Part shown: positions 2-61,437 of the stretch, one piece after another
How the letters are laid out: each line of letters begins with the position of its first letter
Numbering within the stretch: position 1 is the first letter of the stretch
Assembly (NCBI GenBank): GCA_943736015.1
Contig: OX031065.1
Location: 43,882,992 to 43,946,991 of the forward strand
Length of the DNA: 64,000 bases
From: Tridacna crocea
Lineage: Eukaryota; Mollusca; Bivalvia; Cardiida; Cardiidae
Direction of reading: 5' to 3'
Translations under genes and position numbers: made by a program
Notes under the pieces: model-generated
The model's database searches: none
Seen by the model: the letters and a program-made list of their open reading frames with translations, nothing else
What the model was told of the DNA's origin: nothing

Positions 2-229
2 TTAACCCTTTACTCCATAGATACACATTTCTATGCAATGCTTGTAGGAGCCTTTGGAACACATTGTGGCAAAAGGTGAAATTGCTTGTGATGAGCAATT
101 TCTCTTTTTGTCACAATGTTTTCTATGCTATCAAAAGGTGTTAATACACCATAGAAACGGCTTCATCCTTGCTGTTATTTAGGGTCAATTAGAGATGCCA
201 TAGAAATGCCATATGGGGTAAAGGGTTAA
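2..229. mobile_element. TTAA hairpin MITE, GGTG/GCTCG subfamily (type c)
   Basis: It runs from TTAACCCTTTACTCC to GGGGTAAAGGGTTAA, with TTAA at both ends. The centre pairs GGCAAAAGGTGAAATTGCT with a slightly decayed partner arm. Other copies of this subfamily lie at 29276, 49397 and 60531. Confidence 0.85.
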
Positions 230-609
230 ACAAATTAGCACTGGATGGAAATGTCCAGGTTACTATGTCAAATAAGTATGTGAAAACAGCCTTGCAAACC
301 GAGAAATTGCCAGGACAGTTTTCCATTTTGGATTGTTGTTTGGGAGTGCTTCCAATTCAAGAGGTAAACAAATTTGCTATTTTGGCATGGAGTTAACAGG
401 TCCAAATGATACAAACATCATCATGTACCTGGTACCAAAATCAGAAGAAGAGCACTGCATGGAAGTGCCAACGCTTTGCTGCAAACTGCTTGATTTTTCA
501 TAGAAATATCCAAGTCAAAAAGGGACACAACTGTGTTGAAAGTATTTGGATGGTAACCAGCCCCTGTTGTATGAGTTCCCCTTTTGATAGTTAACAACTT
601 GTTAAAAGT
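230..609. other. Intron or flank, no gene seen
   Basis: AT-rich sequence with no splice-bounded open frame matching the A2M-like gene and no repeat I recognise. Confidence 0.4.
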
Positions 610-837
610 ATAACTTTTTACCAAACGACAAAATCTTGGACTAGTCCAAATTGAAAGCATTTGCAGACAACAAAACAAATGTGAATCAAAATTTTAAATT
701 TGATTTGGGAAGGATAGAAAACATTATAGGAAAAGGAGAAAATGCTGGTTACCAGCATTTTATCCTTCTCCCACAATGTTTTCAAAAGGCTTTTTCTCAG
801 GGTCGTCAAAAGTCGGGATTGTGTGATAAAGAGTTAA
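610..837. mobile_element. TTAA hairpin MITE, GCTGG subfamily (type a)
   Basis: Left end TAACTTTTTACCAAACGAC, right end GTGATAAAGAGTTAA, central palindrome GAAAATGCTGGTTACCAGC.. with a one-base mismatch (TTTTATCC). Confidence 0.85.
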
Positions 838-1560
838 AGTAAATATTTTAGTAATAACAAAGATATTACATAATCATCAAAGTTTTAACACAACACTGCA
901 GACCTTGTAGAGGACAACGATAACAACCACTCCAGGGCTATGACAATAAATCATCATTTTCTTCAAAACAGCTGAGCTAAAAACAGGCAGCAATGAATGT
1001 AAACAAACCCTTTATCAAACAATTTAGTGTTTTGACTCTTTTTTATCATTCAAAAAGGTCCTATACTTGTAAAAATTTAAAGTTTTTTAAGCTGAAAAAT
1101 TTGACATAGGCATAAAAGAACTGATGTCAGCCGAAGAAGCAGGATGAAATTTAGCATTGTGGGAAAAGAAACAAATGCTGCTAATAAGTATTTTTCAGCT
1201 TTTAACTCCTAATAATTTCAAATTTTTCCCCAAGTCTATAAAAATCCTGGATTGCTTGGTAAAGGGTTTAGGAAAAAAAATTTAAAAAGCTAAGTGGAAA
1301 AATGGCACATTGCTGATAATAAATATTTTGTTCTTTTCCAAAATGTCTTCTTCCCTTTCAAAAAATAATCCCATTGTATGGACCTGATTAAGTTTCTCTT
1401 CTCAAAAGCTGTCAATTTGGACATGTGCAAAATTCATAAGCACGAAGCAAGGTATAAGTGACTATTTGCAATTACAGTCAAATCTTAATTCAGTCCTTTC
1501 CTTCCATAAAATACAAGCAAACTAGATACTAATGATGTATGCAGGTGTCCATCCTGCATG
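838..1560. other. Decayed repeats, no gene seen
   Basis: Contains an eroded hairpin-MITE fragment (about 1148-1270, ending GGTAAAGGGTTTA) and a second possible one near 1290-1370. The rest is unassigned. Confidence 0.45.
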
Positions 1561-2007
1561 CAATTCTTTGCCAAATGACATAACTGGACTTGTCCAAATT
1601 AAAAGCACTTTCAGTAGACAATATACATTTGACTCAAAAATTGAAATATGTGTATAGAAGAGTGAAAAACATAGTGGGAAAAAGGAGAAAATGCTGGTTA
1701 CCAGCATTTTCTCCTTTTCCTACAGTGTTATCTAAAGACTTCTTTCTCAAGGTCGTTTAACCCTTTCCCAAACAAGCCCTGGTTTTTACGTGTCTGCAGT
1801 AAAAGTCTTTTGAAAAGACTGTGGGAAAAGGAGAAATTGCTCGTAATGAGTAATTTCTCCTTTTCCCACGGTGTTTTCTACCTTTTACAGAACTTTCTGG
1901 CATTTTCTCTAAATCTAAAATTGTTTGCAAACTCTTTTGGTTTGGAAGAGTCCAAAATTTGTCGTTTGGGAAAGGATTAAAGATGGGATTGTGTAGTAAA
2001 CAGTTAA
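1561..2007. mobile_element. TTAA hairpin MITE type a, split by a nested MITE
   Basis: The left part runs from AATTCTTTGCCAAATGAC through the GCTGG palindrome to CAAGGTCGT. The right part AGATGGGATTGTGTAGTA..GTTAA resumes after the insertion at 1757-1980. Confidence 0.85.
1757..1980. mobile_element. TTAA hairpin MITE, GGAG/GCTCG subfamily (type b), nested
   Basis: Starts TTAACCCTTTCCCAAACAAG and ends TTTGGGAAAGGATTAA. Central arms are GGAGAAATTGCTCGTAA and TGAGTAATTTCTCC. Inserted in the internal TTAA of the surrounding type a copy, giving a TTAA duplication. Confidence 0.9.
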
Positions 2008-2182
2008 TGCATCTGCAAAAAGTATTAAACTATTCCAGCCTGCACAGTCACAGGTAAAAATGTTTTGCTATCTGCAATTTTTTTCATGTTCAAGGATCAT
2101 TTTACCTCATAGTTCAGTCTATTGTAAGGCAAAATGGATTTCATATTTTCAAAAACAAGACACTATTTTACCCTGGTAATGG

Positions 2183-2415
2183 GTTTATTCTTTACCAAAC
2201 AAGCCCTGGTTTTCATGATCCTGGATAGTAAAGCTTTAGAAAACCTTGTTGGAAAAGGAGAAAATGCTGGTAACTAGCATTTTCTCCTTTTCCCACAATG
2301 TTTTCTACCCTTTCAGAGACAAATTTCATTTATCCGTACACTTAATTTGCTGTCTGCAAATCTTTCACTATGGGCCAGTCTAACATAATTATTGTCACTT
2401 ATTAAAGAATTTTAA
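2183..2415. mobile_element. TTAA hairpin MITE type a, eroded ends
   Basis: Has TTTACCAAACAAGCCCTGG at the left, palindrome GAAAATGCTGGTAACTAGC, and a degraded right end near TTGTCACTTATTAAAG. Confidence 0.75.
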
Positions 2416-2642
2416 AACTCTTTACCACACAACCCCTACTTTTCATGACCCTGAGAAGGAAGCCTTTTGAAAACATTGTGTGAAAAGGAGAAAGTGCTGG
2501 TATCTAGCATTTTCTCCTTTTCCCACAATGTCTTCTACCCTTCCCAAAACCAATTTTTATTTTTCAGTCACATTTATTTTGTTGTCTGCAAATGCTTTCA
2601 ATTTGGACCAGTCTAAGATTTTGTCGTTTGGTAAAGGGTTAA
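2412..2642. mobile_element. TTAA hairpin MITE type a
   Basis: Starts about AAACTCTTTACCACACAAC and ends GTCGTTTGGTAAAGGGTTAA. The palindrome carries point decay (GAAAGTGCTGGTATCTAGC). Confidence 0.8.
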
Positions 2643-2947
2643 GCAGTCCTAGAAGTTAAAATCTCTGCACAACTGGCTGGTTTCATGTTACAATGTGACA
2701 TTACCATGCAATAGCATGTAAGTATGCAAGGATTGGAGCCAGGCAATAACACATTATATGTGCAAGGAGTGGAGTCACGGTCTGTCAGAAACAGATCATG
2801 ACGGTGCTACATATATTGCAGTTTACGTCAATGCATTATATCGTATTGGTCAAGAAAAAGCTTAACCTTTTCCCAAACGACAAATTTTGGACCCTTCCAA
2901 ACCGAAAGAGTTTCCAGATGACAATTTTTGATTTGGAGAAAAGTATC

Positions 2948-4053: not shown

Positions 4054-4282
4054 TTAACTCATTACCACACGAGACAATTTTGGACTGGTCCAAATTGAAA
4101 GCATTTGCAGATGACAAAAAAAAGGTGACTGAAAAATTGAAATTTAGTTTGGGAAGGGTAGAAAACAATGTGGGAAAAGGAGAAAATGCTGGTTATCAGC
4201 ATTTTCTCCTTTTCCCACAGTGTTTTCAAAGGGCTTCTTTCTCAGGGGCGTCAAAAGTAGGGATTGAGTGGTAATGGGTTAA
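4054..4282. mobile_element. TTAA hairpin MITE type a next to exon 9
   Basis: TTAACTCATTACCACACGAG to GAGTGGTAATGGGTTAA with the GCTGG palindrome. It ends 34 bp from the 5' splice site of the 4317-4457 exon. Confidence 0.9.
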
Positions 4283-4580: not shown

Positions 4581-4783
4581 TTAACCCTTAAGGTCCTAAG
4601 GGCAACTCTTGGACCCTATGCAGACAGTGCAGATCAAGATCAGACTGCATAGAACATGCAGTCTGATCTTGGATCTACTCTGATAAGGAGATATCATTCC
4701 CCCTAAACTAGCATTATGTAGCAGAATTTGGATTTTTATTGTCAGCTTGCAAGTTTCATTTCACTTCACAGGATAGGGGTTAA
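4581..4783. mobile_element. Second TTAA family with GATCAAGATC palindrome
   Basis: TTAACCCTTAAGG at the left, GGATAGGGGTTAA at the right. Central arms are GATCAAGATCAGACTGCATA and ATGCAGTCTGATCTTGGATC. Related copies lie at 41781, 45262, 49240, 53160 and 61505. Confidence 0.8.
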
Positions 4784-5283
4784 CCCTTCAATAAACAATC
4801 CCAGGTCTTAACAACTCTGTAGAAGAGGCCTTTTAAAAACATTGTGGGAAAAGGAGAAAATGCTGCTATCCACATTTTTCCACATTTTTTCTACCATATT
4901 AATGCAATATTGCACCATTTCATCTGCAATGAAATCATTGTTTGCTAATGCTTTCAATTTCGAGAAGAAGCCTTTTAAAAACATTTTGGGAAAAGGAGAA
5001 AATACTGCCAACCAGCATTTTCTCCTTTTTCCACATTTTTTCTACCCTATTAATGTAATATTGCACCATTTTGAACCAAACTAAAATTATTGTCTGCTAA
5101 TGCTTTCTATTTGGAGAAGAGGCCTTTTAAAAACATTTTGGGAAGAGGAGAAAATGCTGCTAACCAGCATTTTCTCCTTTTTCCACTCTATTAAAGCAAT
5201 ATTGCACCTTTTGAACCACATTGAAAGTGTTGTCTGCTTATGCTTTCAATTTGGAAAAGGCTAACATTTTGTCACCTGGTTAA
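4780..5283. mobile_element. TTAA MITE with triplicated hairpin core
   Basis: One pair of TTAA ends encloses three tandem hairpin units, each beginning GAAGA(G/A)GCCTTTTAAAAACATT, at 4822, 4964 and 5116 (spacing 142 and 152 bp). It shares its right TTAA with the next copy. Confidence 0.85.
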
Positions 5284-8690: not shown

Positions 8691-11010
8691 AACAAGAGGG
8701 CCATGATGGCCCAGAAACTGCTCACCTGAGTTTATTGACCAAACATGAACCATCTAGTTTCCCAGTGACCTAGTTTTTTATCAGACATTACCCATCATCA
8801 AACACTTTTGAGATATCAATAACACAAATATTCTGACCAAGTTTCATGAGTATTGGACTAAAAATGTGGCCTCTACAGCGTACAAAAGGTTTTTCTAAGA
8901 TTTCACAAAGTGACCTAGTTTTGGACCCAACAATTACCCATTATCAAACTCTTTTGAGACATCACCAAAACAAACATTCTGACCAAGTCTGAAGAGTATC
9001 AGGCAGAAAATGTAACCTCTAGAGTGTATACAACGTTTTTCTAATATTTGACCCATTGACCTAGTTTTTTACTCTACATGACACATTTTCAAACTCATTC
9101 AAGGTATCAGCAGGACAAATATTATAAACAAGTTTTAGGAGTATCAGACTGAAAATGTGTCCTCCAGAGCATACAAAAGGTGTTTATAACATTTGACTTA
9201 TTGACCCAGTTTTAGACCCAACATGACCCATTTTCAAACTCATCCAAGATATTATAAAGGCAAACATTCTGACCACTTCTCAAGAGTGTTGGACTGAAAA
9301 TGTGGAAACCAGAGCATATACAAGGTTTTTCTAAGATTTGACCTGGTGACCTAGTTTTTAACCCCCATGACCCATTTTCAAACTCGTCTACTATATCATC
9401 AAGGCAAACATTCTGACCAACTTACAAGAGTTTTGGACTGAAAATGTGGCCTCTAGAGCCTACAAAAGGTTTTTCTAACATTTGACCTGGTGACCTAGTT
9501 TTTGACTCCACATGACCCATTTTCACACTCGTCCAAGTTATCATAAAGGCAAATAGTCTGACTAACTTTCAAGAGTTTTGGACTGAAAATGTGGCTTCTA
9601 GAGCATACACAAGGTTTTTCTAACATTTGACCTAGTGACCTAGTTTTTGACCCGACATGACCCATTTTCAAACTTGTCTGAGATATTATTAAGACAAACA
9701 TCCTGACCAACTTTCATGAGTATCCGACTGAAAATGTGGCCTCTAGAACATACACAAGGTTTTTCTAAAATTTGATTTAGCGACCTAGATTTTTACCCCC
9801 ACATGACCCATTTTAGATCTTGTCCGAGATATCATCCAGGCTTACATCCAGAGCAATTTTCATGAGTATCGGACTGAAAATGTGGCCTTTAGAGTTTACA
9901 CAAGCTTTTCTAAGATTTGACCTGGTGACCAAGTTTTTGACCTGGCATAACCCATTTTCAAACTCATCCTACATTTCATCGAGGCAAACATCCTGACCAA
10001 CTTTCATGAGTATCCGACTGAAAATGTGGCCTCTAGACCGTACACAAGATTTTTCTAAAATTTGACCTAGTGACCTACTTTTTGACCAGACATAAAACAT
10101 TTTTGGACTAGTTCGAGATATCATCAAGACAAACATTCTGACCAACTTTCAAGAGTTTTGGACAGAAAATGTGGCCTCTAGAGCGTACAAAAGGTTTTTC
10201 CAAGATTTAACCTAGTGACCTAGTTTTTGACCCATCATGACCCATTTATGAACTCGTCTGAGATATCATCCAGACAAACATCCTGACCAACTTTCATGAG
10301 TATCCAACTGAAAATGTGGCCTCTAGAGCGTACAAAAGGTTTTTCCAAGATTTAACCTAGTGACCTAGTTTTTGACCCATCATGACCCATTTATGAACTC
10401 GTCTGAGATATCATCCAGACAAACATCCTGACCAACTTTCATGAGTATCCAACTGAAAATGTGGCCTCTAGAGCGCACACAAGCTTTTTCTAAAATTTGA
10501 CCTAATGACCTAGTTTTTGACCCCACATGACCCATTTTCCAACTTGTCCAAAATATCATCCAGACAAACATCCTGACCAACTTTCATGAGTATCCGACTG
10601 AAAATGTGGCCTCTAGAGCATACACAAGGTTTTTCTAAAATTTGACCTAGTGACCTAGTTTTTGACCCAACATGACCCATTTTTGGACTTGTCCAAGATA
10701 TAATCAAGACAAACATTCTGACCAACTTTCATGGGTACCCGACTGAAAATGTGGCCTATAGAGCGTACACAAGGTTTTTCTAAGATTTGACCTAATGACC
10801 TAGTTTTTGACCCGACATGACTCATTTTTGAACTCGTCCGAGATTTCATCAAGGCAAACATCCTGACCAACTTTCATGAGTATCGGATTGAAAATGTGGC
10901 CTCTAGAGCGTACACAAGGTAAAAGTTGACGACAGACGATGTACGACAGACGACAGACACAGGACGATCACAATAGCTCACCATGAGCACTTTGTGCTCA
11001 GGTGAGCTAA
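8691..11010 (+). mobile_element. HINE-like family B copy 2, about 15 tandem units
   Basis: 5' end AACAAGAGGGCCATGATGGC and GCTCACCTGAG. About 15 units of ~145 bp follow, each with TGACCTAGTTTTTGACCC, CATGACCCATTTT, ATCATC(A/C)AGACAAACAT and GAAAATGTGGCCTCTAGAG. The 3' end has a GACGACAGACGATG tract, palindrome GAGCACTTTGTGCTC and AGGTGAGCTAA. Reading frames of about 71 aa on the minus strand arise only because one unit chains into the next in a shifted frame (145 is not a multiple of three). Confidence 0.85.
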
Positions 11011-15026: not shown

Positions 15027-16636
15027 AACAATAGGGTCATTATGGCCCTGAAATCGATCAGCTGAGTCTATTGACCAAACATTAAGCATTTTCAATCTAG
15101 TTTTCCCAGTGACCTAGTTTTTTATCAGACATTACCCATTATCATACACTTTTGAGATATCAATAAGACAAACATTCTGACCAAGTTTCATGAGTAATGG
15201 ACTGAAAATGTGGCCTCTACAGCGTACAATAGGTTTTTCTAAGATTTGACCAAATTACCTAGTTCTTGACCTGACAATTAACCATTATCAAACTCTTTTG
15301 AGACATCACCAAAACAAACATTCTGATCAAGTTTGAACAGTATCAGGCCACAAATGTGGCCTCTAGAGTGTACACATGTTTTTTTATAATATTTGATCCA
15401 ATGACTTAGTTTCTGACTCCACATGACCCATTTTCAAACTCATTCAAGGTATCACCAAGACAAATCTTATGAACAAGTCTCAGGAGTATCAGACTGAAAA
15501 TGTGTCCTCCAGAGCTTACACAAGGTTTGTATAACATTTTACCTATTGACCTAGTTTTTGACCAAACATAATCCATTTTCAAACTCATCTAACATATCAT
15601 ATAGGCAAACATTCTGACCAATATTCAAGAGTGTTGTACTGAAAATGTTGCATCCAGAGCGTATAAAAGGTTTTTCTAAGATTTGACCTGGTAACCTAGT
15701 TTTTGACCCAACACAACCCATTTTCAAACTTGTCCGAGATATCATCAAGACAAACATTCTGACCAACTTACAGGAGTTTTGGCCTGAAAATGTGGCCTAT
15801 AGAGCGTACAAAAGATTTTTCTAACATTTGACCTAGTGACCTAGTTTTTCACCCGACATGACCCATTTTCAAACTCATCCAAGATATCATCAAGACAAAC
15901 ATTCTGACCAACTTTCAAAAGTTTTGGACTGAAAATGTGGCCTCTAGAGTGTACACAATGTTTTTCTAAGATTTGACCTAGTGACCTGGTTTTTAACCCA
16001 TCATGACCCATTTTCACACTCGTCCGAGATATCATCAAGGCAAACATTATGACAAACTTTTATGAGAATCGGACTGAAAATGTGGCCTCTAGAGCGTACA
16101 CAAGGTTTTTCTAAGATTTGACCTAGTGACCTAGTTTTTAACCCAACAAGACCCATTTTCAAACATGTCCGAGATATTATCAAGGCAAACATTCTGACCA
16201 CATTTCATGAGCATGGGACTGAAAATGTGGCCTCTAGAGCGTACACAAGGCTTTTCTAAGATTTGACCTAGTGACCTAGTTTTTGACTCGACATGACCCA
16301 TTTTCAAACTTGTCCAAGATTTTATCAAGGCAAATATTCTGATAAACTTTCATGAGTATTAGACTGAAAATATGGCCTCTAGAGCATACTTAAGGTTTTT
16401 CTAAGATTTGACCTAGTCACCTAGTTTTTGACCTGACATGACACAATTTTGAACTTGTCCGAGCCTTCATCGAGGCAAACATTCTGACCAGGTTTCATGA
16501 GTATCTGACTGAAAATAAGGCCTCTAGAGCATACACAATGTTAAAGTTGACGACAGACGACATGATGGACGACGGACGCCTGACACAACACTATCACAAT
16601 AGCTCACTCTGAGCACTTCCTGCTCAGGTGAGCTAA
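15027..16636 (+). mobile_element. HINE-like family B copy 3, about 10 tandem units
   Basis: 5' end AACAATAGGGTCATTATGGC with GATCAGCTGAGTC (decayed). About ten ~145-bp units follow, then the GACGACAGACGACATGATGG tract, palindrome GAGCACTTCCTGCTC and AGGTGAGCTAA. Confidence 0.85.
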
Positions 16637-17804: not shown

Positions 17805-19046
17805 AACAAGAGCTTCGCAAAGCGGCGCATATACGCCTGAAGGTGCTTGTCAATGAAATGAGTTGAAATGACGGAAGGGCCATGAATGAAGAGTAATTAA
17901 TCTCTGTCAGTCTTGAAAGGTTCAAGCTTTTATATTTTAGAAATTATGGCCCAGACAAAAATTCAAAGAGAAAACTAACAAAGGGCAATAACTAAAAAAG
18001 AAGGATGGCAGAGTTATGGTTCTTGTGCAGTGAACTTCTTCATAATGTGTTGTATTAGTCTTTGAAGTTTCAAGATGATAGGTTTTAAAGTTTGGGAGTT
18101 ATGGCCTGGACAAAAAATCAAACTGAAAATTAACAAAGGGCAATAACTAAAAAAATAAAGGTCGCAGAGTTACGGTTCATGTGCACTGCACTTCTCCATT
18201 ATGGGTTCTATCAATGTATGAAGTTGCAAGTTATTAGCTTTTATAGTTTGGAAGTTATTGCCTGGACAAAAATTCAAACTGAAAATTAACAAAGGGCACT
18301 AACTCAAAAAATAAAAGTGGCACAGTTATGGTTCATGTGCACCACACTTCTCCATAATGTGTTCTATCAGTATATGAAGTTGCAAGTTATTAGCTTTTAT
18401 AGTTTGGAATTTATGGCCTGGACAAAAATTCAATTTGAAAATTAACAAAGGGCAATAACTCAAAAAATAAAAAAGGCAGAGTTATGTTTTATGTTCACTG
18501 CACTTCTCCATAATGTGTTCTATCAGTGTATGTAGTTTCAATTTGATACCTTTTATGGTATGGAAGTTATGGCCTGAACAAAAATTCAAAGTGAAAAGTT
18601 GGTTATTTCAGAAATCAAGGGCAGATAATTTTGGAATGCAAACAGCGATCAAAATTCTAAGACCCAGGTGCACAACTAGACATCATGGAGATTCATTGTG
18701 GCAAGTTTCAAATAATTCCGATGAAAACTGTAGGAGGAGTTGCACACACAAGAAATTGCTAACGGACGGACGGACAGTCTTACGAGACGGACCTTGTGAG
18801 GTCGAATTGCTCTTTATTCAATACACCCAAATAACCCCACAAAGTTAACCCCACAAGCTTACCCTAACCCCACAAACCCTAACCCTACAAACCTAAGCCT
18901 AACCCTAACCTACCAGATGGACGGAAGGAACCCCATAGAGACTAAATGGACAAATGACCCCTAACCCCACAATGTCGGGCTCGTAAGGACAGACAGACGG
19001 ACGACTGCGGGTATAACATAATACGACCCTTCGCGCGTATAAAAAA
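17805..19046 (+). mobile_element. HINE-like family F copy 1
   Basis: 5' end AACAAGAGCTTCGCAAAGC then CGCATATACGCCTGAAGG. About five ~150-bp units follow (GGCCTGGACAAAAATTCAAA, ATTAACAAAGGGCAATAACT, CTTCTCCATAATGTGTTCTA). 3' end GGGTATAACATAATACGACC, CTTCGCGCGTATAAAAA. The 5' CGCATATACGCC and the 3' GCGTATA are complementary. An extra 209-bp element sits at 18779-18987. Confidence 0.85.
18779..18987. mobile_element. Small TIR insertion carrying telomere-like CCCTAA repeats
   Basis: Ends CTTACGAGACGGACCTTGTG and the near-complement of it, CACAATGTCGGGCTCGTAAG. The interior has CCCTAACCCCACAAACCC, AACCCTAACCCTAC and related degenerate (CCCTAA) units at about 18835-18920. GACAG flanks both sides. 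Family F copy 2 lacks this insert at the matching place (around 44296). Confidence 0.7.
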
Positions 19047-20664: not shown

Positions 20665-20785
20665 TACCAAAAAGCTATAATTAATCGTGACGTGCAATTT
20701 CACCTTTTGCCCCAATGTTTTCTACACTATCAAAAGGTAAACAACTAGATTTTGTAGAAAGTCCAAACAACAAGGGGTTAGAAGC
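20665..20785. repeat. Type c hairpin MITE fragment
   Basis: CGTGACGTGCAATTTCACC, TTTTGCCCCAATGTTTTCTA and ATCAAAAGGT match one arm of the type c MITE. Confidence 0.65.
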
Positions 20786-25854: not shown

Positions 25855-26083
25855 TTAACCCATTACCACACAATCCCTACTTTTGACGCCCCTGAGAAAG
25901 AAGACTTTAGAAAACATTGTGGGAAAAGGAGAAAATGCTGGTAACCAGCATTTTCTCCTTTTCCCACAATGTTTTCTACCCTTCACAAAACAAATTTCAA
26001 ATTTTCAGTCACTTTTATTTTGTAGTCTGCAAATACTATTGATTTGGACAAGCTTAAAATATTGTCGTCTGGTAATGGGTTAA
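25855..26083. mobile_element. TTAA hairpin MITE type a, first of a chain
   Basis: Clean TTAACCCATTACCACACAAT to GTCTGGTAATGGGTTAA copy with a perfect palindrome. It shares its right TTAA with the next element. Confidence 0.92.
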
Positions 26084-26308
26084 CCCTTTACCAAACAATC
26101 CCTGATTTTTACGACCCTGAGATAGAAGCCTTTTAAAAACATTGTGGGAAAAGGAGAAAATGCTGGTAACTAGCATTTTCTCCTTTTCCCGCAATGTTTT
26201 CCATTCTGCTGGAACCAAATTTCAATTTTTGAGTTACATTCACTTTGTCGCCTGTGAGTGCTTTCAATTTGGATCAGTCTAACATTTTGTCATTTGGTAC
26301 AGACTTAA
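26080..26308. mobile_element. TTAA hairpin MITE type a, second of a chain
   Basis: TTAACCCTTTACCAAACAAT to TTTGGTACAGACTTAA. Its left TTAA is the right end of the preceding copy. Confidence 0.9.
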
Positions 26309-29275: not shown

Positions 29276-29504
29276 ATAACTCTTCACTCCATAGATACTC
29301 ATTTCTACGCATTGCTTGTAGGAGCCTTTGGAAAACATTGTGGCAAAAGGTGAAATTGCTCGTCACGAGCAATTTCACCTTTTGCCACTATGTTTTCTAT
29401 GCTATCAAAAGGTGTCATATACATATAAGAAACAGCTTCACCCTTGCTATTATTTAGGGTCAATTAGAGATACCATAGAAATGCCTTATGGGGTAAAGGG
29501 TTGA
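29276..29504. mobile_element. TTAA hairpin MITE type c
   Basis: Left ATAACTCTTCACTCCATAG, right GGGGTAAAGGGTTGA. Perfect stem GGCAAAAGGTGAAATTGCTC with a CGTCACG-type centre. Confidence 0.85.
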
Positions 29505-32750: not shown

Positions 32751-32866
32751 AACAGTCCTAAGGTTTTTCATCTCAACCAAACTGACTCTCAAACTATAAA
32801 AAATATTTGCAAAGTAATTAATAACTATGCAATCTACAACAGGTTAAAGACCATTGTGAAATTAGT

Positions 32867-33416: not shown

Positions 33417-34239
33417 ATGTGCTGATGCTTATGTTGTTTTTTTTTCATATATAAAACATATTTTTATAATGATGGATAAATATTTTTAAAGTATCCAAAA
33501 TGCTTTTTTTTTTTCATTAATATTAACTTTATCTTCCTTAAAAAAAAAATAGAAAGAAAAACGTGATTTTATCACTAAGCATTTGATTCACTTCGCTATG
33601 TTTATTGTTAAATAAGTTTCATCATTGGTTTTAATCATGTAAGGCAAATTTAAAATAAAGCAAGAGTTATAAATCGTCTTGATGACGAATACGTAATTTC
33701 TATTAATTTTTACATAAATTGAAGTTAGAAATACTATAATCAAAGGACTGAAGGTCCTGAAAGTCGCACTAATGGTGAAACCTTGATATTTTGGGACTGA
33801 TAGATGGCCATCACCCTTTTACAGGACAATCTTGCTTTTACCTAATTCAAACAGCTTTGGAAAACAGAGCTGAAAGAAAGAAAAACTCATTTTTTTTTTA
33901 CTCAAGGTTTTCTTCCAATTAGACTCAAATTTAATGGTTTACCATAAGTCAAATTTGATTAGTTTCAGCAATTCTTTGATTTTGACTAGTCTGCAATTTT
34001 GTTGAGCAAATGCAGTTACTTGTAATAGGCAGCTTCCCACCAAGTTAGATCTTTTCATTTTTCTTTTTCTTTAATATATCCATGTTGGCATATAGCCTGA
34101 CATAATATACCCAAAACAATATTAAATGTATGTCATTGGTCACCTCTTTTACTTGGAACTTACTGAAACAGTGCCACTGCATACCGATGCTAGCACTTGA
34201 CAATTTTTGAAAAGGGACACATAAGGGACATCTCTGTGA

Positions 34240-35197
34240 AATAATTTCAAAATCTGACCAACCATTTCAGTGAAGAAGAATTTTCAAGAATTTCTTAATG
34301 TCCGAATAGTGCAAGTGGACCCCATTTACCAGAGCCATGTTTCTTGATGGATCAGAATTTCGCAAACATTTTTGAAAATGGTCACCAAAGGAACATTGCT
34401 TTGAAATTATTTTAAAATCTGATCATGGGTTTCAGAGAAGGTGAATTTTCAAGAAATTCTTCATTTCCATATACATGTAGTGCAAGTAGCCCCAATTCAC
34501 CTGAGCCATGTTTCTTGGCAAATCAAAATTTCGCGAACAAGTTTTTAAAAGGGTCACCCAAGGAACATCTCTGTGAACTTTTTTCAATATCTGATCAGCC
34601 GTTTCAGAGAAGTAAGAATTTTCAAAAAATTTCTGCATGTCCATATAAGTACAAGTAGCCCCCATTCACCAGAGCCATGTTTCTTGACGGATTGAAATTT
34701 CGCAAACAAATTTTGAAAAGGGTCACCCATAGAACATCCCTGAGAAATTATTTCAAAATCTGACCAGCGGTTTCTGAGAAGAATTTTTTAGAATTTCTTT
34801 ATTCCTGTATAGTGCAAATAGCCCCCATTCACCAGAGTCATGTTTCTTGACTGATCAAAATTTCACGAAAAAGTTTTGGAAAGGGTCACTTAAGGAACAT
34901 CTCTGTGAAATTATTTTAAAATCTGGCCAGCTGTTTCAGAGAAGAAGATTTTTAAAGAATTTCTTAGAAAACTGTTTGGTTGCCATGGCAACTAAAACTT
35001 TTGACGTAATCAAATTCTGTGAACAATTTTCAAAGAGGACGTCCCAAGGAACATTCCAGCCAAGTTTGGTCCATATTGGCCCAGCGGTTTTGGAGGAGTT
35101 GATGTTTAAAGAATTGTTGATGACGCATGACAGATGACAGATACCAGGTGATCCTAAAAGCTTCCCTTGAGCATGTTGTGCTCAGGTTAGCTGAAAA
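34240..35197 (+). mobile_element. HINE-like family E copy 2
   Basis: Same units and end as copy 1 (GTTAGCTGAAAA), uninterrupted. Confidence 0.8.
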
Positions 35198-35315
35198 AAC
35201 AGTCCTAAGGTTTTTCATCTCAACCAAACTGACTCTCAAATTATAAAAAATATTTGTAAAGTAATTAATAACCATGCAATCTACAACAGGTTAAAGACCA
35301 TTGTGAATAATTAGT

Positions 35316-35535
35316 TTAACTCATTACCAGACCAGCCCAATTTTAGGCTTGTCCAAATTGAAAGCATTTGCAGACGACAAAATAAAAGTGACAGAAAATT
35401 TGAAATTTGGTTTGTGAAGGTTAGAAAAAATTGTGGGAAAAGGAGAAAATGCATTTTTTTCCTTTTCCCACAATGTGTTCTAAAGGCTTCTTTCTCAGGG
35501 TAGTCGAAAGTAGGGATTGTGTGGTAATGGGTTAA
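35316..35535. mobile_element. TTAA hairpin MITE type a, inside duplication copy 2
   Basis: Copy of 32867-33087 with the same shortened palindrome. Confidence 0.9.
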
Positions 35536-35957: not shown

Positions 35958-37195
35958 AAAAATCATGTGTTCATTTTGACTACACATTGGGTACGTTTTG
36001 ACTCCACTTGGATAGGTCTAGACTTCATTTGGGTAAGTTTTGACTCCATTCAGGTACGTTTTGACTCCACCCGGGTACGTTTTGACTTGGGTACGTTTTG
36101 GTTTGAGTACGTTTTGACTGTAAACCCCTCAACGTACGGTCGTAATTGCTGTATTTTACCTTGCGTTTCATATTTCATGTTGTATTTACTGTATACGGAG
36201 GGGATGAAATATCCTCGTCGCCACTCTTTTGGGGTCCGAACAAAAGTAGTAATCAACATTTTAACTTTAATGGACTGGTGTTAATCGTTATGTGCGTTTG
36301 TTTTCTATCCCGTCCGCCATTTGCATTTTCTTAAAGTACAATGTTGTACTTCAAACTTAAGCTGATCAAAGACCTAAAATACTAGAATTGATAGCAAAAG
36401 TTCATGTCTGATTTCCATAAAATCGTGTATGTAAGCGTTTCGCATGCAGTTTTATATGTTACAAAAGTTTTTTGATGTGTAACGGAATAGTTTTTGAGTG
36501 CTCTGTTTTGGGGTATTTTTCGAGTGGTTTGGGGTGTTTCATCCGAGACGTACGTTACACACTAGATCAAAGCTCCGGAACGAAACAAATTTTCAAATTT
36601 AGAGCCAGTTTTACGATATTTAACCCTGAATTCATGGTTTGCATGGTTTAAAAGAGTTGATTTCAAATGACATCACTCGAGTCCGAAATTCTACCCTTAT
36701 AAGCGAAGCTTTACAGGTCTCGATAATACATGAATATTTACAGTAAGGTGCTCTCGATAAGCCATATTAATCCGCGATCCCTTTTAAACTCACATTAAGC
36801 ACTGATGTGGGGATATCTTAGCTGAATTATGTTTTATTTACCCATCTAAACAAAGATGGATGTTAAATTTTCACATGATATAAAAAATAACCGCCTTTTT
36901 TTTAATTTAAAATTTGAGTCACGTTCTCCTTTTTCTAGCGTAGGTATATGAGTTATATGAGTTACCGGGTCCAGTCCCATCATAAAGAACAAATTCCAGA
37001 CATACCAAAGAAAAAGTAGTTCTACAGCGATCGGATGAAAAGCAGAGTAACTGCACCTCGTTTATGAAGTATATACGACGTTCTTGATCCAATTTTTAGC
37101 ATGATTCTTCAACCCACTATAGACACCCCCCCAACCCACCCTGAGCTCCTCGAGCTCATCGCAAAAAGTCGAACGTTTTGACAAACGTGCGACTT
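35958..37195. repeat. Tandem duplication 2, copy 1 (GTACGTTTTGAC array at its start)
   Basis: Begins AAAAATCATGTGTTCATTTT, has a run of GGTACGTTTTGACT-type units at 35988-36120, and ends GTCGAACGTTTTGACAAACG, TGCGACTT. The next copy follows at once. Confidence 0.9.
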
Positions 37196-38414
37196 AAAAA
37201 TCATGTGTTCATTTTGACTACACATTGGGTACGTTTTGACTCCACTTGGGTAGGTTTAGACTTCATTTGGGTAAGTTTTGACTCCATTCGGGTACGTTTT
37301 GACTTGGGTACGTTTTGGTTTGAGTACGTTTTGACTGTAAACCCCCTCAACAGTGCAACTGTCAATGTACGGTCTTAATTGCTGTACTTTACCTTGCGTT
37401 TCATATTTCATGTTGTATTTACTGTATACGGAGGGGATGAAATATCCTTGTCGCCACTCTTTTGGGGTCCGAACAAATGCAGTAATCAACATTTTAACTT
37501 TACTGGTGTTAATCGTTATACATGTGCGTTTGTTTTCTATCCCGTCCGCCATTTGCATTTTCTTAATCAAAGTACAATTTTGTACTTCAAACTTAAGCTG
37601 ATCAAAGACCTAAAATACTAGAATTGATAGCAAAAGTTCATGTCTGATTTCCATAAAATCGTGTATGTAAGCGTTTCGCATGCAGTTTTATGTGTTACAA
37701 AAGTTTTTTGATGTGTAATGGAATAGTTTTTGGGTGTTTTGGGGTATTCGAGTGGTTTGGGGTGTTTCATCCGAGACGTGCGTTACAAACTAGGTCAAAG
37801 CTGCGGAACGAAACAAATTTTCAAATTTAGAGCGATATTTAACCCTGAATTCATGGTTTGCATGGTTTAAAAGAGTTGATTTCAAATGACATCACTCGAG
37901 TCCGAAATTCCACCCTTATAAGCGAAGCTCTACCGGTCTCGATAATACATGAATATTTACAGTAAGGTGCTCTCGATAAGCCATATTAATCCGCGATCCC
38001 TTTAAAACTCACATTAAGCATTGATGGGGGATATCTTAGCTGAATTGTGTTTTCTTTACCCATCTAAACAAAGATAGATGTTAAATTTTCACATGATATA
38101 CAAAATAACCGCATTTTTTTTTAATTTAAAATTTGAGTCACGTTCTCCTTTTTCTAGCGTAGGTATATGAGTTATATGAGTTACCGGGTCCAGTCCCATC
38201 ATAAAGAACAAATTCCAGACATACCAAAGAAAAAGTAGTTCTACAGCGATTGGGTTAAAAGCAGAGTAACTGCACCTCGTTTATGAAGTATATACGACGT
38301 TTTTGATCCAATTTTTTGCATGATTCTTCAACCCACTATAGACACCCCCCAACCCACCCTGAGCTCCTCGAGCTCATCGCAAAAAGTCGAACGTTTTGAC
38401 AAACGTGCGACTTA
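37196..38414. repeat. Tandem duplication 2, copy 2
   Basis: Same start and end as 35958-37195, about 20 bp shorter, with one or two array units fewer. Confidence 0.9.
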
Positions 38415-38601: not shown

Positions 38602-38830
38602 TTAACCCATTATCACACAATCCCTACTTTTGACGCCCCTGAGAAAGAAGCCTTTAGAAAACATTGTGGGAAAAGGAGAAAATGCTGGTAACCAGCATTT
38701 TCTCCTTTTCCCACAATGTTTTCTACCCTTCACAAAACAAATTTCTAATTTTCAGTCACTTTTATTTTGTCGTCTGCAAATGCTTTGAATTTGGACCAGT
38801 CTAAAATATTGTCGTTTGGTAATGGGTTAA
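38602..38830. mobile_element. TTAA hairpin MITE type a
   Basis: TTAACCCATTATCACACAAT to GTTTGGTAATGGGTTAA, perfect palindrome. Confidence 0.92.
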
Positions 38831-39216: not shown

Positions 39217-39400
39217 ATTAACTCCATGCTTTTATGACTATGTAAAAACAATAAAAGGTTTTGTAAACAATGCGGAAAAAGGAGAAAATACTGGCTAACA
39301 AAATTTTCTCCATATCCCACACAATTCTTTACCATTCTGTCACATTTGTCCTCTGCAAGTGCTTCCTATTTCAAGTAGTATAAAATTCTGCTTGAGTTAA
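39217..39400. mobile_element. Eroded TTAA hairpin MITE, chained
   Basis: Left ATTAACTCCATGCTTTTATG, right TTCTGCTTGAGTTAA. Shares TTAA 39397-39400 with the next copy. Confidence 0.7.
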
Positions 39401-39625
39401 CCCATTACCACACAATCCCTACTTTTGACGCCCCTAAGAAAGAAGCCTTTTGAAAACACTGTAGGAAAAGGAGAAAATGCTGGTAACCAGCATTTTCTCC
39501 TTTTCCCACAGTGTTTTCTACCCTCCCCAGAGCAAATTTCAATTTTTCAGTCACCTTTATTTTGTCGTCTGCAAATGCTTTCAATTTGAACCAGTCTAAA
39601 ATTTTGTCGTGTGGTAAAGAGTTAA
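39397..39625. mobile_element. TTAA hairpin MITE type a, chained
   Basis: TTAACCCATTACCACACAAT to GTGTGGTAAAGAGTTAA, perfect palindrome. Confidence 0.92.
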
Positions 39626-41556: not shown

Positions 41557-41784
41557 TTAACTCTTTCCCAAACAAACCCTGGTTTTTACGTGTCTGCAGT
41601 ACAAGTCTTTTGAAAACACTGTGGGAAAAGGAGAAATTGCTTGTAACGAGCAATTTCTCCTTTTCCCACAGTATTTTCTACCCTTAAGGAGAACTTTCTA
41701 CCATTTTCATCAAATCTAAAATTGTTGTCTGCAAACTCGTTCAGTTTAGAGAAGTCCAAAATTTATCGTTTGGGAAAGGGTTAA
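41557..41784. mobile_element. TTAA hairpin MITE type b, first of a chain of three
   Basis: TTAACTCTTTCCCAAACAAA to GTTTGGGAAAGGGTTAA. Arms GGAGAAATTGCTTGTAACG and GAGCAATTTCTCC. Confidence 0.9.
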
Positions 41785-43008: not shown

Positions 43009-44490
43009 TTAACCCATTACCACACAATCTCTACTTTTGACGCTCCTGAGAAAGAAGCCTTTAGAAAACATTGCAGGACAAGAGCTTCGCAAAGCAGGGG
43101 GTATACACCCGAAGGGGCTTGTCAGTGAAATGAGTTGAAATGACGGAAGAGCCATGAATGAAGAGTAGTTTAAATCTCCATGATATGTGAAAGATATTAA
43201 AGGGCAATAGCTAAAAAAAGAAGGGTGGCACAGTTACAAATTTTGTGAAATGTTGTTCTCCACAAGGTGTTCTATCAGTCTTGAAAGGTTCAAGATCATA
43301 GCTTTTATATTTTAGAAATTATGGCCCAGACGAAAATTCAAAGAGAAACTAACAAAGGGCAGTAACTAAAAAAGAAGGATGGCAGAGTTATGGTTCTTGT
43401 GCAGTGCACTTCTTCATAATGTGTTCTATTAGTCTTTGAAGTTTCAAGATGATAGGTTTTAAAGTTTGGGAGTTATGGCCTGGACAAAAATTCAAACTGA
43501 AAATTAACACAGGTCAATAACTCAAAAAATAAAGGTCGCAGATTTATGGTTTATGTGTACTGCAGTTCTCCATAATGGGTTCTATCAGTGTATGAAGTTG
43601 CAAGTTGTCAGCTTTTATAGTTTGGAAGTTATGGTCTGGACAAAAAATCAAACTGAAAATTAAGAAAGGGTTATAACTCCAAAAATAAAAGTGGCAGAGT
43701 TATGGTTCATGTGCGATGCACTTCTCCACAATGTGTTCTATCAGTGTATGAAGTTCCAAGTTAAAAGCTTTTATAGTTTAGAAGTTATGGCCTGGAAAAA
43801 AATTCAAACTGAAAATTAACAAAGGGCCGTAACTCAAAAAATAAAAGTGGCAGAGTTATGGTTCATGTGCACTGCACTTCTCCATAATGTGTTCTATCGG
43901 TGTATGAAGTTGCAAGTTATTAGCTTTTATAGTTTGGAAGTTATGGCCTGGACAAACATTCAAACTGAAAATTAACAAGGGCAATAACTCAAAAAATAAA
44001 AGTGGCAGAGTTATGTTTCTTGTACACTGCACTTCTCCATAATGTGTTCTATCAGTTTATGTAGTTTCAATTTGATACCTTTTATGGTATGGAAGTTATG
44101 GCCTGGACAAAAATTCAAAGTGAAAAGTTGGTTATTACAGAAATCAAGGGCAGATAATTTTGGAACGCAAACAGCGATCAAAGTTCTAAGACCCAGGTGC
44201 ACAACTAGACATCATGGAGATTCATTATGGCAAGTTTCAAATAATTCCGATGAAAACTGTAGGAGAAGTTGCACACACAAGAAATCGCTAACGTACAGAC
44301 AGACGGACGACCGGGGGTATAACATAATAAGACCCTTCGGGCGTATAAAAAGAGAAATCTACTTTTCTCACAATATTTTCTACCCTATCAGTCAGAAATT
44401 ATCATATTAACAAAATTTCATTTGTTGTCTGCAAGTGCTTTGATTTTGGTCCAGTCAAAAAAATTGACATAAATTTTGGTAAAGAGTTAA
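43009..44490. mobile_element. TTAA hairpin MITE type a split by a HINE-like element
   Basis: The left part TTAACCCATTACCACACAAT..AACATTGCAGG ends at 43077. The right part AGAGAAATCTACTTTTCTC..GGTAAAGAGTTAA starts at about 44350. Confidence 0.85.
43078..44349 (+). mobile_element. HINE-like family F copy 2, inserted in a MITE stem
   Basis: 5' ACAAGAGCTTCGCAAAGC with GGTATACACCCGAAGG. About six ~150-bp units (GGCCTGGACAAAAATTCAAA). 3' GGGTATAACATAATAAGACC, CTTCGGGCGTATAAAA. Here the 5' CCCGAAGG matches the 3' CCTTCGGG exactly. Confidence 0.88.
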
Positions 44491-47422: not shown

Positions 47423-47650
47423 TTAACCCTTTCCCAAACGATAAATTTTGGACCCTTCCAGACCAAATGAGTTTGCAGACAACAACTTTAGATATGGAGA
47501 AAATGGCAGAAAGTTCTCAAAAAGTGTAGAAAACACTGTTAGAAAAGGAAGAATTGCTCGTTACGAGCAATTTCTCCTTTTCCAACAGTGTTTTCAAAAG
47601 ACTTTTACTGCAGACACGTAAAAACCAGGGCTTGCTTGGGAAAGGGTCAA
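47423..47650. mobile_element. TTAA hairpin MITE type b, reverse orientation
   Basis: TTAACCCTTTCCCAAACGAT to GCTTGGGAAAGGGTCAA. Perfect tip GAATTGCTCGTTACGAGC. Confidence 0.88.
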
Positions 47651-49010: not shown

Positions 49011-49240
49011 CATAACTATTTCCCAAACAAGCCCTGGTTTTTACGTGTCTGCAGTACAAGTCTGTAGAAAACAGTGTGGGAAAAGGAGAAATTGCTCGTA
49101 ACAAGCAATTTCTCCTTTTCTCATACTGTTTTCTAGCCTATCAGAAAACTTTCTGCCATACTCATCAAATTCAAAATTGTCATTGGCAAACACTTTGAGA
49201 TTGGGACAGTCTAAAATTTGTCATTTGGGAAACGGTCAAT
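49011..49240. mobile_element. TTAA hairpin MITE type b
   Basis: ATAACTATTTCCCAAACAAG to CATTTGGGAAACGGTCAA. Arms GGAGAAATTGCTCGTAAC and AAGCAATTTCTCC. Confidence 0.82.
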
Positions 49241-49638
49241 TGACAATTTCAGTCTAGAATTAAGACCTAAATTCTTTTGCAGATTCAATGTTGCTTTTGT
49301 CTGGAATGTAGCAGCAAAGCAGACTATGTAGATAAAAGATCAACCAGCATGTTCTGCAAAGTTTGATCTTGATCTACATTGACTTATAAAACAACTTTAA
49401 CCCTTTACCCCATAATGCATTTCTATGGTATCTCTAATTGACCCTAAATAATAGCAAGGATGAAGCTGTTTTTTATATGTATATGATACCTTTTTATAGC
49501 ATAGAAAACACTGTGGCAAAAGGTGAAATTGCTCGTGACGAGCAATTTCACCATTTGCCAGTGTTTTCCAACGGCAATGCATAGAAATGAGTATCTATGG
49601 AGTAGAGGGTTTAATTGTGGAAGGTGCTTCAGGGGTTA
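49240..49638. mobile_element. Second TTAA family copy split by a type c MITE
   Basis: Arms GTAGATAAAAGATCAACCAG and TTTGATCTTGATCTAC. The tail TTGTGGAAGGTGCTTC..GGGGTTAA resumes after the nested element. Confidence 0.75.
49397..49614. mobile_element. TTAA hairpin MITE type c, nested
   Basis: TTAACCCTTTACCCCATAAT to TATGGAGTAGAGGGTTTAA. Stem GGCAAAAGGTGAAATTGCTC is perfect apart from CACCATTTGCC. TTAA on both sides. Confidence 0.88.
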
Positions 49639-49899: not shown

Positions 49900-50194
49900 T
49901 TAACCCATTATCACACAATCCCTACTTTTGATGACCCTGAGAAAGAAGCCTTTAGAAAACATTGTGGGAAACGGAGAAAATGCTGGTTACCAGCATTTTC
50001 TCCCTTTCCCACAATATTTTCTACCCTTCACAAAACAAATTTCAAATTTTCAGTTACCAGCATTTTCTCCTTTTCCCGCAATATTTTTACCCTTCACAAA
50101 ACAAATTTGAAATTTTCAGTCACTTTTATTTTATCGTCTGCAAATGCTTTCAAATTGGACAAACCTAAAATATTGTCGTTAGGTAAAGTGTTAA
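49900..50194. mobile_element. TTAA hairpin MITE type a with 63-bp internal duplication
   Basis: TTAACCCATTATCACACAAT to GTTAGGTAAAGTGTTAA. The second hairpin arm plus AACAAATTTCAAATTTTCAG occurs twice in tandem. Confidence 0.9.
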
Positions 50195-50568: not shown

Positions 50569-50796
50569 TTAACCCTTTACCAAACAGTCCCTGTTTTTTA
50601 CAACCCTGAGATAGAAGCCTTTTGAAAACATTGTGGAAAAAGAAGAAAATGCTGTTAACCAGCATTTTCTTCTTTTCCACAATGTTTTCTACCCGGCTTG
50701 AAACAAATTTCAAATTTTGACTTACATTTATTTTGTCGTCTGCATGGGCTTACAAATTGGACCAGTCTAAAATTTCACTGTTTGGTAAAGGGTTAA
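50569..50796. mobile_element. TTAA hairpin MITE type a
   Basis: TTAACCCTTTACCAAACAGT to CTGTTTGGTAAAGGGTTAA. The arms show paired changes (AAGAAGAAAATGCTG and CAGCATTTTCTTCTT). Confidence 0.9.
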
Positions 50797-55969: not shown

Positions 55970-55977
55970 TCAGTACC

Positions 55978-56197
55978 TTAACTCTTTACCAAACAACAAT
56001 ATTTAAGTCATGTCCAAATTGAAAGCATTTGCAGATAACAATTTCAAAGTGGTTAACAGGACCCAATTTTCCTTCGATAGGGTAGAAAACTTTGTGGGAA
56101 AAGGAGAAAATACTGGTTACCAGCATTTTCTCCTTTTCCCACAAAGTTTTCTTCTTTTAACAGGGTCATTAAAAGTCGGGATTGTGTGGTAAGTTAA
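55978..56197. mobile_element. TTAA hairpin MITE type a, chained with a fragment
   Basis: TTAACTCTTTACCAAACAAC to GTGTGGTAAGTTAA. The stem foot has a paired change (ACTTTGTGGG and CCCACAAAGT). A left-arm fragment follows to 56275, sharing the TTAA. Confidence 0.88.
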
Positions 56198-56496: not shown

Positions 56497-56728
56497 TCTC
56501 TTAGCTCTTTTCCAAACGACAAATATCAGACTTCCAAATTCAAAGAGCTGGCACATGACAATTTAAAAAGCTGCAAAAATGGTGGAAAATTCGCTAGTAG
56601 TGGGGAAAAAGTATTTAATAAAGAAGAAATTGCTTATAACGAGCAATTTCTCCTTATTCAACATGTTTTGACAAAAGAATTTGATAGCACACATGTGATA
56701 ACCCGTGTTTGTTTGGGAAAGTGGTGAA
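56497..56728. mobile_element. TTAA hairpin MITE type b, eroded
   Basis: Left TAGCTCTTTTCCAAACGAC, tip GAAATTGCTTATAACGAGC, right GTTTGGGAAAGTGG. Confidence 0.75.
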
Positions 56729-59354: not shown

Positions 59355-59378
59355 TAAATGAGCAGGAGATAATCATGT

Positions 59379-59826: not shown

Positions 59827-59889
59827 AATGTTTTACCAAACGACAAAATTTTAATGAAGACCAAACTGAAAGGGTTTGCAGACATCCAT

Positions 59890-60118: not shown

Positions 60119-60250
60119 GTGTGATTCAAATGATAGAATATAGAAACACTAAAGGAAAAGGAGAAAATGGTGCTTACTAGGATTTTCTCCTTTTCCCATG
60201 TTCTAAAAAATGTAAGGGTTATTAAAACTAGGCTTTCCATCTCAGGGTCA

Positions 60251-60479
60251 TTAACCCATTACCACACAATCCCTACTTTTGACGCCCCTGAAAAAGAAGC
60301 CTTTTAAAAACACTGTAGGAAAAGGAGAAAATGCTGGTAACCAGCATTTTCTCCTTTTCCCACAGTGTTTTCTACCCTTCCCATAACCAATTTCAATTTT
60401 TCAGTCACCTTTATATTGTCGTCTGCAAATGCTTTCATTTTGAACCAGTCTAGAATTTTGTCGTGTGGTAAAGAGTTAA
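60251..60479. mobile_element. TTAA hairpin MITE type a
   Basis: TTAACCCATTACCACACAAT to GTGTGGTAAAGAGTTAA. Paired stem-foot change (ACACTGTAGG and CCACAGTGT). Confidence 0.92.
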
Positions 60480-60502
60480 AACTTGCAATGTTCAGTAAAG
60501 AG

Positions 60503-60962
60503 TTAATCCTTAACCACACAATTCCAACTTTTAACCCTTTACCCCGTAAGGCATTTCTATGGTATCTCTAATTGACCCTAAATAAATGAAGGGATGAAGC
60601 TGTTTCTTATGTGTATATGACACCTTCAGATAGCATAGGAAACATTAAGACAAAAGGTGAAATTACTCGTCACGAGCAATTTCACCTTTTGCCACTATTT
60701 TTTCCAAAGGCTCGTACAAGCAATGCGAAGAAATGAGTATCTATGGAGTAAAGGGTTAAGCACCCTGAAGAAGAAGCCTTTTGAAAATGTTGTGGGTAAA
60801 GGAGAAAATGCTGGTACCAAGCATTTTCTCCATTTCCTGCAATGTTTTCTACTCAGTCAAAGGAAAGCTTCATCATTAAATTTTGAACCTCATTTAAATT
60901 GTCGTCTGCCAATATTTTGAATTTGGACGGGTCTAGCATTTTGTTATGATGTAAAGTATTAA
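60503..60962. mobile_element. TTAA hairpin MITE type a split by a type c MITE
   Basis: The left arm TTAATCCTTAACCACACAAT..CCAACTTTTAA resumes at CACCCTGAAGAAGAAGCC and ends TGTAAAGTATTAA. Confidence 0.88.
60531..60759. mobile_element. TTAA hairpin MITE type c, nested
   Basis: TTAACCCTTTACCCCGTAAG to TGGAGTAAAGGGTTAA, inserted in the internal CTTTTAA of the host MITE. Tip GAAATTACTCGTCACGAGC. Confidence 0.92.
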
Positions 60963-60965
60963 CCC

Positions 60966-61195
60966 TTAACCCTTTCCCAAATAATCCCTGGTTTTTACGG
61001 CCCTGATATAGAAGCCTTTTGAAAATGTTGTGGGAAAAGGAGAAAATGCTGGTAACCAGCATTTTCTCCTTTTCCCACAATGTTTTTCTACCCTACTGGA
61101 AACAATTTTCATTTTTTGAGTAACATCTATTTTGTCGTCTGCAAGTACTTTCAATTTGGACCAGTCTAAAACTTTGTCGTTTGGTAAAGAGTTAA
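60966..61195. mobile_element. TTAA hairpin MITE type a
   Basis: TTAACCCTTTCCCAAATAAT to GTTTGGTAAAGAGTTAA. Perfect palindrome. Confidence 0.9.
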
Positions 61196-61209
61196 TCTGC
61201 TAAAATAAG

Positions 61210-61437
61210 TTAAGTCTTTAACAAACCACTAAAATTTAGACTGGTCCAAATTCAAACTATTTGCAGACTTCAAATTAAACGTGACTGAAAGGATGATTTT
61301 TGTTTTTGGTAGGTTAGAAAACATTGTGGGAAAAGGAGAAAATGCTGGTTGCCAGCAATTTCTCCTTTTTCTACAATATTTTTAAAAGTCTTCTGCTACA
61401 GGGTCGTTAAAGCTCGGGATATGTGGTAATGGGTTAA
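61210..61437. mobile_element. TTAA hairpin MITE type a
   Basis: TTAAGTCTTTAACAAACCAC to ATGTGGTAATGGGTTAA. The tip is GCTGGTTGCCAGC, a paired A-to-G/T-to-C variant. Confidence 0.88.

Follow-up and report, generated by a model that had tools for sequence, protein, structure and literature searches.

Subfamily-founding changes arrive as matched pairs in the central palindrome of a putative piggyBac-type MITE family of Tridacna crocea

How do the two arms of a long palindrome inside a multicopy element come to differ from one subfamily to the next and still remain complementary to each other? This question is raised by a 64,000-nucleotide stretch of the genome of the bivalve Tridacna crocea (GenBank assembly GCA_943736015.1, contig OX031065.1, positions 43,882,992 to 43,946,991 of the forward strand), hereafter called the window. 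It is rich in repeats, contains about 36% G+C, and its commonest repeat is an element of about 229 bp with a palindromic centre. A preliminary description, made from the letters alone, recognised here subfamilies of a hairpin-bearing miniature inverted-repeat transposable element (MITE) with complementary arms, and attributed the pairing either to selection in active source elements or to homogenisation of the arms. In the present analysis the changes that founded the subfamilies are found to have arrived as matched pairs, whereas changes restricted to single copies are roughly independent, with no clear pairing above chance.

The family was collected by four rounds of nhmmer search over the window, seeded with one copy carrying TTAA at both ends (38602-38830, class a as defined below). 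The search returned 166 overlapping matches, from which 91 non-redundant copies and fragments were left after overlap removal, divided 52 to 39 between the two strands. Matches to CCAGCATTTTCTCC with at most three mismatches number 142 across the window, as compared with a mean of 7.21 and a maximum of 14 in shuffled sequences. Full copies extend from TTAA to TTAA with ends of the form TTAACCC(T/A)TTACC..; TTAA lies within 6 nt of both ends in 28 of the 39 full-length rows (1.4% for random 229-bp stretches) and of at least one end in 36 of them, counts that hold partly by construction, as the seed itself ended in TTAA. The terminal inverted repeats comprise about 16 complementary end positions, reading CCCTTTACC or CCCATTACC in class a, and the neighbouring copies at 25855-26083 and from 26080 onward have a single TTAA in common. 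The element is short and non-coding, with many copies of similar length. Neither a transposase nor an empty target site was recognised in the window; four open frames elsewhere in it had no Pfam match, one open frame checked against PDB had no match, and Rfam gave 0 matches at gathering score, which lends no footing to a reading of the element as a structured RNA gene. Exact stem patterns had 0 matches in viral_contigs and genome_contigs, collections that by design hold no animal genomes. Because TTAA together with the 5' end motifs CCCTT and CCCAT marks piggyBac-type elements (PMC10813416), the family is classified by its TTAA target, CCC(T/A)TT.. ends and short multicopy form as a putative piggyBac-type MITE.

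The palindrome occupies columns 55-121 of the family model and consists of 33 pairs around a single central base, column 88, so that the arms are longer than the 25-27 bp, with a loop of 0-2 bases, that had been described. Folded as single-stranded DNA, a class a copy forms a 34-bp hairpin of -39.3 kcal/mol (z -16), and one copy of class b and one of class c give z -14.1 and z -14.5, respectively; two flanking stretches of the outer arms are unstructured in the same fold test (z +0.65 and +1.4). Among 63 well-covered copies, the stem carries on average 4.4 mismatches (range 0-16), with four perfect stems. The class consensuses are paired at 33/33 (class a, 55 rows), 32/33 (class b, 5 rows) and 32/33 (class c, 4 rows) positions. 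Class b differs from class a on both arms at pairs 62/114, 80/96 and 85/91, and class c differs from it on both arms at 68/108, 75/101, 80/96 and 85/91; in both comparisons a one-arm difference is found at 67/109 (G-C to G-T), the lone unpaired class difference, whose state is mixed inside class b (3/5) and class c (2/4). The proposal of subfamilies with complementary arms is thus borne out, as 3-5 stem pairs distinguish the classes and, with one exception, both arms of these pairs have changed. For eight changed columns scattered over 66, the random probability of forming four complementary pairs is near 1e-7, a figure that omits the ninth, unpaired changed column. Judged by eye, the outer arms are alike between classes a and b; class c has the ends, the hairpin and some stem-adjoining bases in common with class a, and its outer arms otherwise bear little likeness to those of a or b. 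These arms had been said not to covary, which is correct for them in general but not for the terminal inverted repeats, where paired states occur at 7/221 and 10/218.

Founder and private changes were separated on trees built from 63 copies; the other 28 of the 91, including the class c copy 49611, were dropped because their coverage fell below 58 of the 66 stem letters or below 60 letters of the outer arms. Two trees were built with FastTree, one from the outer-arm columns only and one from all columns, and midpoint-rooted; with simple ancestral reconstruction, changes on internal branches were counted as shared and those of single copies as private. The outer-arm tree contains 6 paired internal events (5 complementary), where column shuffles average 0.79, and the all-column tree 5, all complementary, where they average 0.35; in both cases none of 20,000 shuffles reached the observed number. 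Private changes, 292 on either tree, form 15 pairs against 18.0 expected (standard deviation, sd, 3.5) on the outer-arm tree and 18 against 18.9 (sd 3.6) on the all-column tree. Complementary pairs account for about 10 of the 20-25 shared events and for 18-20 of the 292 private changes (p about 1e-5 or less, Fisher test). The outcome that the preliminary description had held to speak against its own proposal, a lack of paired enrichment once founders are counted, is therefore seen in single copies and not in the founders themselves.

The contrast proved stable to resampling. Over 40 bootstrap trees, 3-9 complementary internal pairs were obtained (mean 6.1), and private pairs averaged 18.2, with slid partners at 17.8; when class c was removed, the complementary internal pairs numbered 2-5 (mean 3.2), with slid partners at 0.55. 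When columns were simulated independently, at least 5 complementary internal pairs appeared in 1 of 300 runs, with a mean of 60 internal events per simulation against 26 in the real data. Simple counts of alignment cells had been considered as proof as well, with both-side changes in 47 cells at the true pairs (34 of them complementary) against 18-37 for 16 slid versions; they were set aside in favour of tree events, because 26 of the 34 complementary cells sit at just five subfamily-marking pairs. The same circumstance, together with the small number of founder events, is what could be said for chance or an alignment artefact from few subfamilies: many cells per event inflate such counts. As the signal survives the tree event tests, the bootstraps and the simulation, we regard this explanation as highly improbable. 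Searches of an open-access library found no report of covariation or compensatory changes in MITEs, nor of covariation or paired changes confined to the founders of a MITE stem.

Several features of the paired changes bear on how they arose. Pairs 80/96 and 85/91 always go together: wherever 80/96 is T-A (11 copies), C85, G91 or both are present. Pairs 68/108 and 75/101 change on the same branch of the all-column tree; copy 2-229, in which 75/101 is T-T, is a possible intermediate. Swaps (A-T to T-A, G-C to C-G) account for four of the five founder-pair kinds, as compared with 22% complement-type changes among the private stem changes (binomial p 0.0097 in a test chosen after the data were seen). 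The class changes are spread along the arm, from column 62 to column 85. At the central base, 63 copies have A in 48 cases, T in 8, G in 5 and C in 1, with 1 missing; in class c, G and C are each found twice. Complement-type events make up 10 of the 14 at this base, the most of any of the 225 columns (8 in the columns that follow, no more than 5 in any stem column), although without class c it merely ties with column 54 at 8 such events each. The T-centred copy 49901 sits among A-centred copies whose outer arms are 94-97% like its own. Flips of the central base to its complement are possibly a trace of template switching, which in yeast homogenises the arms of inverted repeats and inverts their spacers (PMC8604942) and in RNA genes is marked by multiple simultaneous compensatory changes and loop inversions (PMC8794818). 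Template switching is a likely supplier of the double changes, the central base giving a hint.

Further variation was observed within the classes. The C-G state of pair 62/114 is present in classes a, b and c (8 of 91 copies) and may represent a recurrent paired change, an old polymorphism or an exchange between subfamilies. In the stems of classes b and c, CpGs occur at columns 85/86 and 90/91, and TG or CA stands there in 4 of the 11 copies with T-A at 80/96, as CpG decay predicts. Private paired changes had been reported for three copies: those placed at 55978 (61/115, A-T to T-A) and 50569 (74/102, G-C to A-T) were recovered, while the one placed at 61210 is changed at columns 80 and 87 with no matching change on the other arm.

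What keeps the symmetry appears to act mainly in source lineages, because arm copying in every copy would pair the private changes too; this suggests that selection, or else a mobility-linked repair step, maintains it there. The earlier choice between selection in sources and homogenisation of arms is thereby narrowed: action in source lineages agrees with shared changes being paired and private ones not clearly so, and arm copying at a mutation-like rate in every copy is unsupported, because private changes would then pair as often as shared ones. Selection for mobility on a symmetric centre is favoured, with excision-tied repair as the main alternative. To the following reading we assign a probability of about 0.5: the symmetry of the centre would be needed, or renewed, as long as the element can still be mobilised, only source copies with matching arms would spread, and a copy that has lost mobility would decay freely, like other DNA. 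Matched changes would most likely arise as one arm is copied onto the other by template switching, one switch making two pairs together (80/96 with 85/91, 68/108 with 75/101), and the symmetric versions would then be kept by selection for mobility. The symmetry might serve as a DNA hairpin or cruciform aiding mobilisation, or as a symmetric site for a transposase dimer. A more specific version, which we put forward only tentatively and hold to be rather unlikely as it stands, is that mobilisation needs or passes through a hairpin or cruciform extruded at the centre, so that matching arms would be re-made or selected at each round of spread and lost at the death of the copy.

A number of results weigh against selection or renewal in mobile sources. 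The founder pairs are of five kinds only and come from few founding events in one window, and unpaired founder changes do occur (among others, G66A in one subgroup of class a and C109T inside classes b and c). A mild private excess is possible, as the data contain 9 private complementary pairs against 4.4 (sd 2.2) simulated, a gap of which part is expected from the 243 private events in the simulation against 291 in the data. Neither a transposase nor an autonomous partner was found in the 64 kb. In favour of the reading is a deficit of shared relative to private changes in the stem (25/292, as compared with 193/884 for the outer arms; p 6e-6), which is also found without class c (13/286 vs 138/900; p 4e-6); since the tree itself came from outer columns, the contrast was repeated with a tree on half of these columns and the test on the other half, which weakened it to a mean ratio of 0.67 (0.37-1.06; p 0.057) with all classes and 0.50 (0.32-0.85; p 0.007) without class c. 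The terminal inverted repeats, though presumably needed for mobility, show no such deficit (ratio 0.93, p 0.91), and the shared-to-private measure is therefore no clean sign of function. As a positive control for pairing, they gave 0 paired shared changes with all rows and 2 without class c; private co-changes in them numbered 9 against 2.6 for slid partners and 7 against 4.3, respectively, 3 and 1 of these being complementary. With few paired shared changes and no lower ratio, this control behaves unlike the stem. Taken together, the shared/private contrast gives moderate support only to a constraint on the stem.

Homogenisation of the arms could also account for the pairing by itself, if one arm is overwritten with the other by template switching or gene conversion, whether in replication or in the repair of the gap left by excision, a process that can also invert the centre and needs no selection. 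Switching is known to have both effects (PMC8604942) and to leave multiple compensatory changes as its mark (PMC8794818), and the central base, topping the list of complement-type changes with the T copy 49901 among similar A copies, is in keeping with it. However, without class c that base holds its lead jointly with column 54, and a free unpaired base would change often anyway; moreover, homogenisation in all copies predicts private pairing equal to shared pairing, which is not observed. A version limited to active elements may apply, and the explanation as a whole is judged unlikely, though a serious competitor. Somewhat more doubtful is a symmetric protein site, that is, a palindrome bound by a dimer of transposase or another protein, with half-sites tracking changes of the protein and a hairpin that never forms. 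Such a site would covary in mobile lineages alone, matching the data, and there is a precedent in piggyBac, whose ends have identical 19-bp palindromes, and in piggyBat, whose palindrome is bound by two cysteine-rich domains of the transposase dimer (PMC11707139). Yet arms of 33 bp exceed such half-sites, the class changes run along the arm from column 62 to 85, and no clear likeness links the stem to the transposase ends (45/2000 shuffles for the best of several variants tried).

The paired differences might instead be differences between parents, if autonomous elements with long subterminal inverted repeats gave rise to each class by internal deletion. Pairing confined to founders fits such repeated birth, as does a class c that has the ends and the hairpin in common with class a and little of the outer arms; but the junction is identical in all three classes, with the arms placed around one central base, which independent deletions would hardly give, and we consider this origin improbable.

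An amplification hypothesis was reportedly put forward by Izsvak and others (1999). The closest published parallel to the present family is formed by the CMITEs of Acropora corals, TTAA piggyBac-like MITEs with an interior more conserved between families than the ends, for which the authors propose a role in transposition (PMC2872659). They are likewise small, with a TTAA target, piggyBac-type ends, tandem neighbours and an interior common to families that differ in other parts, and the ends of CMITE family I (CCCTTTCCC..) are close to those of class b. They differ in being about 100 bp long with a 75-base interior, as compared with about 229 bp, a long palindromic centre and covarying arms here; the words 'hairpin' and 'palindrom' are absent from the text of that paper. 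The ends of piggyBac and piggyBat belong to the same TTAA-type superfamily and contain palindromes bound by a transposase dimer, but these are short, measuring 19 bp in piggyBac, and are placed close to the ends (PMC11707139), whereas the present family has one interior palindrome of 67 bp. The piggyBac elements of animal genomes have the TTAA duplications and the CCCTT and CCCAT 5' motifs, but are of kilobase length with a transposase, and no internal palindrome is noted in the available part of their description (PMC10813416). Template-switch mutation at hairpins (PMC8794818, PMC8604942, PMC7954356) would yield multiple paired changes in a single step as well as an inverted centre, and the present family shows hints of both; it is, however, a general mutation process and not a transposon family, and multiple compensatory changes are there enriched in terminal and internal branches, whereas clear pairing is internal only in the element studied here.

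Coordinates of the individual copies are collected in Table 1.

Table 1. Copies and fragments of the 229-bp element in the window; pairs and columns are those of the family model
Feature	Positions	Strand	Remarks
Class a, seed copy	38602..38830	+	nhmmer seed; 229 bp, TTAA to TTAA
Central palindrome of seed copy	38655..38726	+	columns about 53-124; fold -39.3 kcal/mol, z -16
Class a	4054..4282	-	229 bp, TTAA to TTAA
Class a	25855..26083	+	229 bp; right TTAA (26080-26083) is left TTAA of next copy
Class a	26081..26303	+	adjoins copy 25855..26083
Class a subgroup	60251..60479	+	pair 62/114 C-G and unpaired G66A
Class a subgroup, further members	33190-33413, 39398-39622		pair 62/114 C-G and G66A
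Class a	49901..50190	+	central base T; tandem duplication restarting near palindrome centre (50053)
Private paired change 61/115	55981..56192	-	earlier given as 55978
Private paired change 74/102	50570..50793	+	earlier given as 50569
Unpaired changes at columns 80 and 87	61215..61436	-	earlier given as 61210
Class b	1758..1975	+	
Class b	41557..41784	+	228 bp, TTAA to TTAA
Class b	47426..47647	-	also private pair 66/110 T-A
Class b	49013..49235	+	
Class b	56505..56722	-	diverged
Class c	2..229	+	228 bp, TTAA to TTAA; pair 75/101 T-T, unpaired
Class c	29277..29419	+	aligned part; central base C
Class c	49488..49611	-	aligned part; central base C; outside tree tests (low coverage)
Class c	60531..60759	-	229 bp, TTAA to TTAA; central base G
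Fragment	20679..20740	+	class c-like hairpin half in other context

Two further ideas about the palindrome were tried and rejected. That the stem is a copy of the terminal repeat was tried by aligning CCCTTTACCACACAATCCC to the stem sequence CCTTTTCCCACAAT, with a score reached by 45 of 2000 shuffles of the interior and 22 of 2000 of one arm; with the other three terminal-repeat variants the score was reached in 164 to 1659 of 2000 shuffles, and the idea is not significant after several tries. That the palindrome is a breakage hotspot was likewise dropped, as columns 78-98 contain 7 of the 40 truncated ends, a number matched by 38 of 154 windows of columns and hence ordinary. Gaps of at least 3 touching columns 84-92 number 9 of 30 (mean 3.0, largest 10), which is a hint only, two pairs among the nine being duplicated loci or doubtful members.

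Other repeats accompany the family in the window. A 145-bp tandem repeat forms two arrays of near-identical consensus (8764-10920, 14.9 copies; 15108-16542, 9.9 copies), and a 156-bp unit forms two more (17925-18597, 4.3 copies; 43256-44126, 5.6 copies). Segments 31402-33086 and 34200-35534 are similar, each with ~165-bp arrays and one MITE copy in which the centre of the palindrome is missing (98% alike across 161 bp), apparently as a result of local duplication. MITE pieces, with the stem joined to the right arm, form a tandem at 4781-5280 (152 bp, 2.1 copies), and short tandem repeats of TTTTGACT..GGGTACG units with periods of 11-42 bp are found at 27806-27889, 35974-36119 and 37212-37336.

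The dead copies of MITEs, in thousands, record what their source elements needed, and the division of changes into shared and private ones separates the constraint on the live element from the decay of dead copies; the same division tests selection against template switching as the keeper of symmetry in a long DNA palindrome. Should mobilisation indeed involve an extruded hairpin, the centre would join the two ends as a third cis-acting part, and if the centre has a role at all, the long-standing question of the function of MITE interiors would open to direct test.

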